From Bacteroidota bacterium (lineage in GTDB: Bacteria > Bacteroidota > Bacteroidia > M30B66): a stretch of 64,000 bases of DNA. How positions within the stretch are numbered: the first letter of the stretch is position 1; each line of letters opens with the position of its first letter. Below are positions 6,186 to 47,058 of this stretch, in pieces. The notes beneath the pieces are model-generated. The model was not told the origin of the DNA, ran no database searches, and worked only from the letters and a program-made list of their open reading frames with translations. Made by a program: the position numbers and the translations under genes. The stretch is from NCBI GenBank assembly GCA_027483445.1, contig JAIXUS010000018.1:124001-188000 (forward strand), in the 5' to 3' direction.

Positions 6186-6772
6186 CGCGTTTAGTGGAAT
6201 GTTCATCAAGTCTAACGCCCGACAAATAAAAATCTTACCCAGTCATCGCCCACCAAAGGGGAATTGGATTTCGAATGCCGGCCTTAAATGAAGAAATGAT
6301 CTAAACGATTTTGACTGATTTCTACCACCTAAGCCAATCAGATATGTTGATTTAAGTTTAATCGATAATCACACAACCTGTAGCTTCGGTTTGTAGCTGC
6401 CTATTTGCTGAATTTCAGACCTTTCAGTTGGTCAAGATTCCTAAATTTAAAAGGATGTAAATTCTCGAATGATAGCAGTGGGTAAAGCGCCAGCGGTTGA
6501 AGCGAATACCCCGCAGCCCGGATGCATCGCAATCCGGGTGAGGAGTAGCAGCGAAAAACGCGGTGCCAGAAGTTAGTGCCAAAATGGTAAGATGCTGCTC
6601 ATTAGGCAGGCGCCCCAACTTGAATCAGCCATACAAAGATGCTTTTAAGCGCAATTGAAGTTTGATGGGCAGTTTGCCCACAACTAAGCGTTCGTTCAAT
6701 GAATGTGAATGATGGGTCTATGCTTTTCTAACGCGCTTTTGGCCGACGAGTAGGTTCTGTTACCCTTTGATT
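6186..6772. other. Gene-free stretch with structured repeat copy 1
   Basis: About 590 bases between two divergent promoters. No supported gene. It holds the structured repeat at 6487-6615 and a small perfect hairpin at 6666-6680 (TGGGCA, three-base loop, TGCCCA). The short open frames here lie across the repeat and lack family features. Confidence 0.7.
6487..6615. repeat. Structured intergenic repeat, copy 1
   Basis: Shares three blocks with 45729-45940. Block 1 (6487-6512) begins GCGCCAGCGG and ends ATACCCC, 23 of 26 bases identical. Block 2 (6539-6567) begins TGAGGAGTAGCAGCGAAA and ends CGCGGTGCC, one mismatch in 29. Block 3 is AGGCAGGCGCCC near the end, identical. Between blocks 1 and 2 lies a hairpin, CCCGGAT (6517-6523) with ATCCGGG (6532-6538), whose stem differs in sequence from that of copy 2. 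The ends carry GCGCC and GGCGC, which can pair. Confidence 0.75.
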
Positions 6773-45676: not shown

Positions 45677-46013
45677 TGGCGCGGTTTGCTGGGGTTAAGT
45701 ATTGGCTTCAAAGTGCTGAGTAAATTTAGCGCCAGCGGGTGCAGCGGATACCCCGGAAAACAGAGTGAGCGCGGGAGTGGGAGGTGAGGGCGAGTGTGAA
45801 TATGAGAGCGAGGAGCGTGGGTGTCGAGGGTGAATGAAAAAGGAGTGCGATGGCGGCTCTGTTTGAGGAGTAGCAGCGAAACACGCGGTGCCCGGAGATA
45901 CAGTTTCAGGGTATCGAAAGGCTGAGCGAGGCAGGCGCCCAAAGCGAACCATGGAGGCCGACTGCCACTTTTTAGGGCCAATTAAGATTCGGGCCGGGAA
46001 TTGTTTTTCGTTT
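45677..46013. other. Gene-free stretch with structured repeat copy 2
   Basis: 337 bases between converging genes, most of it the structured repeat at 45729-45940. Long minus-strand frames cross it, but their translated sequences are low-complexity and only reflect the repeat. Confidence 0.7.
45729..45940. repeat. Structured intergenic repeat, copy 2
   Basis: Partner of 6487-6615. Conserved blocks: start (45729-45754), TGAGGAGTAGCAGCGAAA to CGCGGTGCC (45864-45892), and AGGCAGGCGCCC at the end. The interior is longer (about 107 bases, GA-rich) and bounded by an 8-bp inverted repeat, AAACAGAG (45758-45765) and CTCTGTTT (45857-45864), in the place where copy 1 has CCCGGAT/ATCCGGG. A further pair GATACCC (in block 1) and GGGTATC (about 45909-45915) is seen in this copy. 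Confidence 0.75.
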
Positions 46014-46931
46014 TTAGACTGAAAATTCAATTTCCCAGAGCATTACCGCGCGATCGTCGGAGGCGCTTGCGATGATGTTGGTATTTGGTATCCAGTGCAG
46101 GCTATTTACGGAATTGACGTGTCCCTGGTGCTTGTCTTTGTCGATTCGCAGCAGTATTTCGAACTGGTCGGTGTCCCAGATTTTTATCGTTTTATCGCGG
46201 CTTCCTGTGGCAAACCATTGGCCTGAGGAGTGCCAAACAATTTCGTAGATGGCGTAATTGTGGGCGGGGATGGTTTTGATGAGTGTCCAACTGCCGACGT
46301 CCCAAACCGAAAGGTGTGCGTCTTTGGATCCGCTGAGCAAAAAGCGGCCATCGGGGCTGAATGAAACAGTGTTTACGCTTTGTGTATGAGCCTGGTAGCT
46401 GTGTATAAGTTCGAGTGTTTCGGCGTTGAGTATTTTTATTTGACCATCGCCACAGGCCACCGCGAGTATGGAGTAATCGTGGTTGAAGGCGGTTCGGCGA
46501 ATTTTAGCGTTGCATAGCCATAATTCGCGGCTGCATTGAAATACTGAGGATTGCCAAACGGTAAGATTTCCGTCGGCGCCGGCTGCGATTACCTGATTGC
46601 GTTTCGCGTCGAAATTGAGGTGAAAGACGCCTTTGGTGTGCGCGAGCAGGTACTTCACCTCGGCTTTTTGTTGAAGATCGACCACATGAATTCCGCCCTG
46701 GTCGTTACCAATGAGCAGCAGTGGTTCGTTTGGCAGGATGAGTAAACTGTAAACTACTCCGGCTGAGCGAGCGATGAGTTTGGCTTCGTTAATACCATTG
46801 ATTTGCCATTCGGCGATTTGGCGGTCGGAACCGGCCGAAATGATACTTCCTGCAGCGGTACCTTGGGTTACCGTGTAAACTGCTCCTTGATGTCCGGTTA
46901 ATGCGATTACCCTTTTCGCTGAAACTTTCAT
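46014..46931 (-). CDS. WD40-repeat protein
   Basis: A 305-residue cytoplasmic protein made of WD40 repeats, with clear units such as VSFSPDGRFLLSGSKDAHLSVWDV, IVWHSSGQWFATGSRDKTIKIWD and LHWIPNTNIIASASDDRAVMLWEI; about seven blades are expected. No signal peptide and no catalytic domain. Such propellers serve as protein-binding platforms. Start at ATG 46931 (MKVSAKRVIALTGHQGAVYTV), four bases after a perfect -7 element; an earlier start at 46973 would precede that element. Divergent from htpG. Confidence 0.9.
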   Translation of the reverse strand: MKVSAKRVIALTGHQGAVYTVTQGTAAGSIISAGSDRQIAEWQINGINEAKLIARSAGVVYSLLILPNEPLLLIGNDQGGIHVVDLQQKAEVKYLLAHTKGVFHLNFDAKRNQVIAAGADGNLTVWQSSVFQCSRELWLCNAKIRRTAFNHDYSILAVACGDGQIKILNAETLELIHSYQAHTQSVNTVSFSPDGRFLLSGSKDAHLSVWDVGSWTLIKTIPAHNYAIYEIVWHSSGQWFATGSRDKTIKIWDTDQFEILLRIDKDKHQGHVNSVNSLHWIPNTNIIASASDDRAVMLWEIEFSV

Positions 46932-46935
46932 GGGA

Positions 46936-46943
46936 CAAAGGTA
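46936..46943 (-). promoter_or_regulatory. -7 element of the WD40 gene
   Basis: TACCTTTG on the minus strand, exact, four bases before ATG 46931. Confidence 0.6.
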
Positions 46944-47058
46944 GTGGGGCCTGATGAATAAAGTACGTTGCATTGAGCAATGCTTACTGCGCCAATTTGG
47001 CAGTTTCGGGGAGCTGGCACAGGGCTTGAAAACCGCGCATCACTTAACGAAAAAACCT

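Follow-up and report, generated by a model that had tools for sequence, protein, structure and literature searches.

Two intergenic elements in the 64,000-nucleotide stretch of Bacteroidota DNA analysed here (hereafter, the window) belong to a dispersed repeat family that we judge probably to be an intergenic repeat structured at the DNA level: a three-arm form, specific to one lineage, that is related to the Rfam family Flavo-1 and in which frames would be inherited and tips exchanged. Two parts of a single site seem to follow different rules, the frame being inherited vertically and the tip changing between species. Flavo-1 has long been listed as a likely non-coding RNA without a function; our data argue for a structured repeat at the DNA level, add the fuller three-arm form, and suggest that what has been taken for a small RNA is in fact an element of DNA whose tip can be exchanged.

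The element consists of (i) a closing stem, P1 (GCGCC/GGCGC); (ii) an irregular arm, P2, in which short helices alternate with loops, both loop strands reading G-N-A, and whose tip is the exchangeable hairpin; and (iii) a third arm, P3, in which GCC and GGC pair around a variable hairpin. In window coordinates, the parts of the two copies are as follows.

6487 to 6614, plus strand: copy 1, three-arm element of 128 nt between divergent genes (match of the R1 covariance model)
6487 to 6491, plus strand: 5' side of closing stem P1, copy 1 (GCGCC), partner at 6609-6613
6493 to 6513, plus strand: 5' side of P2, copy 1 (GCGGTTGAAGCGAATACCCCG), G-N-A internal-loop strands conserved (113-copy pair table, Flavo-1 alignment)
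6514 to 6539, plus strand: exchangeable tip hairpin, copy 1, CCCGGAT (6517-6523) with ATCCGGG (6532-6538)
6540 to 6569, plus strand: 3' side of P2, copy 1 (GAGGAGTAGCAGCGAAAAACGC), then the start of P3; a block invariant in most copies
6570 to 6604, plus strand: third arm P3, copy 1, GCC (6565-6567) with GGC (6604-6606), variable hairpin inside; the whole arm spans about 6565-6608
6602 to 6614, plus strand: 3' end of copy 1, closing strand of P3 and 3' side of P1 (GGCGC, 6609-6613)
45729 to 45939, plus strand: copy 2, three-arm element of 211 nt between convergent genes (pattern and model matches)
45729 to 45755, plus strand: 5' sides of P1 and P2, copy 2
45756 to 45864, plus strand: exchangeable tip, copy 2, class A, AAACAGAG (45758-45765), a purine-rich GAGYG loop and CTCTGTTT (45857-45864)
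45865 to 45894, plus strand: 3' side of P2, copy 2 (GAGGAGTAGCAGCGAAACACGC), then the start of P3
45895 to 45939, plus strand: P3 arm and 3' side of P1, copy 2, P3 itself at about 45890-45933 (DNA fold)

A sequence-only reading had pointed to both copies. The three blocks that it reported as common to them (26, 29 and 12 bases with 3, 1 and 0 mismatches) are in the sequence as described, as are the two different, perfect stems at the same place, the divergent spacer around copy 1 and the convergent spacer around copy 2. It located the copies correctly, and erred at their ends, each taking in one extra C. Its variable hairpin is the P2 tip; the third arm it missed, taking it as spacer before the third block. 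Its remark that no transposase is present agrees with our domain search, in which the genes flanking both copies showed domains usual for host genes and none typical of a transposase. Directly downstream of copy 2 is a gene for a 319-residue protein made up almost wholly of WD40 repeats (46014-46973, minus strand). Copy 1 scores 94.6 bits with the R1 covariance model (G000:C71:130487-130614, G000 being this genome), and a scan of the window at Rfam gathering thresholds gave a tRNA as its sole match.

That the three arms represent a conserved fold is evident from covariation. In an alignment of 43 copies from this genome and from the metagenome-assembled genome RE-18aug17-170, cells with double changes numbered 49, compared with 21.2 in shuffles, and none of 500 shuffles reached as high. 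In the 113 copies that a script located and whose pairs were tabulated, pair 11-65 is GC in 82, TA in 20 and CG in 8; pair 5-119 is CG in 73 and AT in 26; pair 23-53 is CG in 103 and GC in 8; and pair 8-68 is CG in 106 and GC in 5. Even the purine mismatch 10-66, GA in 104 copies, is flipped to AG in 7, and the loop partners are nearly constant (13-63 GA in 113 of 113, 15-61 AG in 110, 18-58 GA in 112). The frame, comprising P1, P2 with its G-N-A loops and P3, thus keeps Watson-Crick pairing through double changes. P3 was recovered unprompted by RNAalifold and is backed by the pair counts as well. The end pairing GCGCC/GGCGC noticed by the earlier reading is P1, for which other copies provide the compensatory variants GCGCA/TGCGC, GTGCC/GGCAC and GCGGC/GCCGC; P1 thus gives 5-bp inverted ends, as the terminal inverted repeats of a MITE might, and as these ends covary they can be explained by the fold. 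With compensatory changes in P1, P2 and P3, and with pairing that holds across many copies in the interior also, the earlier proposal of a selected fold with a free interior stands. The RNA minimum-energy fold of copy 1 consists of P1, P2 and P3 (z=-2.2), as does the DNA minimum-energy fold of copy 2, at an energy no better than that of shuffles; DNA folding energies are not exceptional for either window copy.

The element is a repeat and not a chance resemblance, since a search of the 4.26-Mb genome with the 17-base block GAGGAGTAGCAGCGAAA, allowing up to two mismatches, gives 49 matches, compared with one for the reversed pattern, and the covariance model (E<=0.01) finds 110 three-arm copies there. 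With the same model, the sister species G198, whose genome is 86% complete, has 74 copies, three other congeners have 6, 7 and 13, and a member of another genus of the same family (G047) has 22; two more distant relatives have none. An order-level model search returned the same ten genomes as the family-level search. RE-18aug17-170 is the same genome as G198, because its loci match G198 at 99-100%. In the low-copy congeners, the regions around the flanking genes, which are short and come from diverged genomes, held no copy, and no orthologous elements were found in more distant congeners. These distributions fit a multiplication of the element in the line leading to the two high-copy sister species, for which the congener regions offer support, short of proof. 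A second dispersed repeat of about 185 bp, with some 25 copies in each of the two sister species, spread over many contigs of both, and 82-97% identity, sometimes adjoins three-arm elements; one copy is in the flank to the left of L012 (G000:C55).

The jump in copy number in one lineage makes a mobile element plausible, and to this extent the earlier suggestion of a non-autonomous mobile element is upheld; the other marks of such an element were not found. Neither a dedicated enzyme nor an autonomous copy was identified for the three-arm element. The concatenated flanks of 20 copies, searched in four congeners, of which those beyond the sister species are too diverged for such a comparison, yielded absent or decayed elements and no clean junction that would reveal an empty site or a target-site duplication, and none of L013, L025 and L105 gave a clean empty site against the sister species, L013 being missing there together with its surrounding spacer.

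To follow single sites, we used flanking sequence to match 31 elements here to their 31 counterparts in the sister species, a comparison of a single species pair of which one member is a metagenome-assembled genome. Mean frame identity at these sites is 0.93, a value inflated by the fact that pairing needs a recognisable frame in both species, and which partial concerted evolution of the frame would likewise raise. The adjoining 40 bases average 0.56 and 0.60 (0.47 and 0.51 for unrelated elements), P3 averages 0.69, and the tip only 0.50 vs 0.43 for unrelated elements. At 19 of the 31 sites the tip hairpin is less than 0.5 identical, and nine sites have a class A tip here (AAAACAGAG...CTCTGTTTT) and a class B tip in the sister species (GTAGGGGCGGC...GCCGCCCTAC), the classes being set by simple motif rules. 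Window copy 1 (L016) belongs to the sites with a replaced tip: at the sister site, L040, the tip is GAAAAACAGAG...CTCTGTTTT in a frame that is 89% identical. In tip-replaced pairs P3 is still orthologous (0.68 vs 0.58, P=1e-4), and several of them have a boundary with the neighbouring DNA that is clearly homologous (L270/L303, L014/L031, L016/L040). Rare P1 variants kept at the orthologous sites L021/L035 and L098/L041 indicate that the frame is inherited vertically. At one site (L265/L291) the tip has been inverted in place between its own arms, with an identity of 0.76 when inverted vs 0.40 when direct. As judged by these alignments, the comparison shows that the P2 tip is replaced in place while the frame stays at its orthologous site, which is stronger than the contrast of two paralogues on which the sequence-only reading relied.

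Tip class is associated with frame columns 19-27 and 48-57, beside the tip, whereas P1 shows no such association, and this sets limits to the exchanged tract; a leftover association with pair 11-65 and with columns 112-113 may reflect sub-families. The class A motif occurs at 31 sites in this genome, 30 of them within or beside model matches and one at a contig end; the class B motif occurs at one site here and at 11 in the sister species, every one inside an element. Among the tips tested in this genus, none was free-standing except the one contig-end site. In the distant genome G174, the Flavo-1 tip motif GAGCGRAGTCGAA lies outside Flavo-1 matches at 10 of 12 sites. The canonical Flavo-1 tips of the distant genomes G174 and G020 (L163-L182) carry other palindromes, some of which are also found outside Flavo-1.

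The earlier reading's mention of similar sequences in other Bacteroidota is supported by Rfam's Flavo-1, which is present in 81 of the 197 Bacteroidia genomes sampled. Copy 1 aligns to the whole Flavo-1 model (RF01705) at 19.2 bits in a permissive scan, and the short copy L028 at 25.4 bits, both short of the cut-off of 42. The window copies are therefore Flavo-1 relatives that fall below its threshold and are not formal members. The P2 arms of copy 1, L028 and L119 align with model positions 1-76 without truncation; furthermore, within the three-arm frame of L119 from G047 (GCGCC...GGTGCC...GGCGCC), the P2 arm scores 52.9 bits as Flavo-1, and this score above the cut-off inside such a frame supports the kinship. 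Both have the same order of 2-3-bp helices and purine loops and a variable tip, and both are intergenic and occur in many copies on both strands; in G174, a single contig, Flavo-1 copies lie on both strands throughout. The window copies differ in adding the P3 arm and a GC-rich P1, and in having tips of a few genome-specific classes. They differ, too, in that the RNA nature assumed by Rfam (type 'Gene; sRNA') is unsupported by the sequence data used here.

One alternative is that the element is a structured RNA, a small RNA or 3'-UTR element whose plus-strand transcript would fold and act in trans or protect mRNA ends. G-N-A loops are common in RNA too, and the RNA fold of copy 1 given above is the predicted three-arm fold. 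Flavo-1 is classed as a likely RNA by Rfam and by Weinberg 2010 (PMC2864571), and has been counted among the most abundant bacterial small-RNA families (PMC9029176). The position of the copies speaks for an RNA as well: with gene context taken from ORF calls of at least 100 aa rather than from annotation, 32 copies lie in convergent and 8 in divergent spacers (P=2e-4), against a window background of 8 and 8. However, helices almost never contain the wobble pair, G.T occupying 4 and A.C 8 of 2236 helix cells in the 113 copies, and G.T 3 and A.C none of about 270 helix cells in 27 distant Flavo-1 copies. Structured RNAs usually have G.U at several per cent of their pairs; the tRNA genes that might have served as a control for G.U use were too few. 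Nor is there an orientation bias, as between co-directional genes 15 copies are sense and 23 antisense (P=0.26), and free swapping of tips is also out of keeping with an RNA. In RNA-seq from F. psychrophilum, Flavo-1 matches are sense or antisense indiscriminately, and many lie outside transcripts (PMC9723704). Strong covariation with hardly any G·U is no proof of RNA, and since G.U is rare and strand preference relative to genes is lacking, DNA fits better; a DNA-level function appears to be the better reading, not a proven one. The structured RNA or 3'-end element named as one option by the sequence-only reading is thus not supported, G.U use and orientation being indirect evidence against it, and we regard an RNA as unlikely.

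For the DNA-level repeat, we propose that folding takes place whenever the plus strand is exposed as a single strand or extruded as a cruciform, and that a putative protein would read the three-way junction and the G-N-A loops, which may have allowed copies to multiply. The tip would be read only as a paired arm. If this hairpin stalls or is cut during replication, a new copy would be taken from another element, through ectopic conversion over short homology or through template switching, by way of the short conserved sequence that flanks the tip on either side, so that tips would spread from copy to copy while frames pass vertically. A stricter version, which we think quite unlikely, is that exchange is driven by a dedicated nuclease or recombinase that recognises the junction and the G-N-A loops, opens the tip and installs that of another element. 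Were exchange directed in this way, folded DNA sites throughout a genome would turn over their tips in concert while frames stay put, and the entire Flavo-1 family would then consist of DNA exchange elements instead of RNAs.

The bias towards convergent spacers, for which the window background is equal, would also be expected of a transcription-boundary hairpin selected by the host, that is, a two-way roadblock or protector of mRNA 3' ends in convergent spacers that is copied because it is useful. Such a hairpin would agree with a frame conserved at orthologous sites and with the toleration of any tip that pairs. However, no T-tract follows the hairpin on either strand, canonical Flavo-1 has no convergent preference (4 convergent and 7 divergent spacers), and the conserved G-N-A loops, the copy-number jump and the tips common to several loci are left unexplained, which makes a boundary function improbable.

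As a multi-copy, palindromic intergenic repeat, the element might instead be REP-like and moved by a RAYT (Y1, PF01797) transposase, and TnpA-REP genes of subclass 2.6 in Bacteroidetes are flanked by atypical structures (PMC6006769). Flavo-1 and Y1 genes co-occur weakly among the 197 Bacteroidia (odds ratio 2.6, P=0.008, without correction for kinship). Against this, the whole 110-copy genome has no Y1_Tnp match (PF01797), whereas low-copy congeners have 2-3, and thirteen Flavo-1 genomes lack Y1. In 20 regions surrounding Y1 genes, Flavo-1 never flanks the gene on both sides; three of these regions contain Acido-Lenti-1 matches instead, above the Rfam threshold or in arrays, and the lone Y1 gene with Flavo-1 nearby, on one side, is bracketed by its own, different inverted repeat. 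With no RAYT in this genome, and Y1 genes elsewhere adjoining other repeats, we rejected it as a likely partner and consider this origin very unlikely. Least credible of all is a purely mutational change of tips, in which stems arise anew through intrastrand template switching (quasi-palindrome correction) and nothing passes from copy to copy: tips are near-perfect palindromes and one is exactly inverted between its own arms, but many unrelated loci bear tips of the same classes (A, B, C and D), and these classes are species-specific (class B at one own site vs 11 sister sites), which is not expected of stems made de novo.

In the open-access literature, we found nothing on such repeats in Bacteroidota beyond the papers cited here. 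Like integron attC sites, to which the likeness is one of working only (PMC2727003), the three-arm DNA repeat would be a single strand that folds, with internal loops whose features are conserved and an end structure that varies; in contrast, its copies are single and scattered, no cassettes or cassette arrays were seen beside them, and the attC box sequence was not seen. With REP/BIME sequences it has in common short palindromic intergenic repeats at high copy number, a bias to the 3' side of genes and head-to-head pairs, but it has a larger fold, an exchangeable tip and no RAYT in the high-copy genome. Four stretches of at most about 600 bp each hold two three-arm elements in head-to-head arrangement, the minus-strand copy preceding the plus-strand one in every case (G000:C6:87219-87583, C55:102830-103258, C73:6382-6823 and C71:194299-194937); they resemble REP/BIME pairs. 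Acido-Lenti-1 RNA (RF01687), likewise listed by Rfam as an 'RNA' and present in Bacteroidota, shows the behaviour of a DNA repeat; it is unrelated in sequence and, unlike Flavo-1, adjoins some Y1 transposase genes (L155, L156). It forms an array beside one Y1_Tnp gene (L155:1246-2295) and lies on both sides of another (L156:1219-1264 and 1864-1908), and it is possibly not an RNA but the REP sequence that goes with a RAYT.
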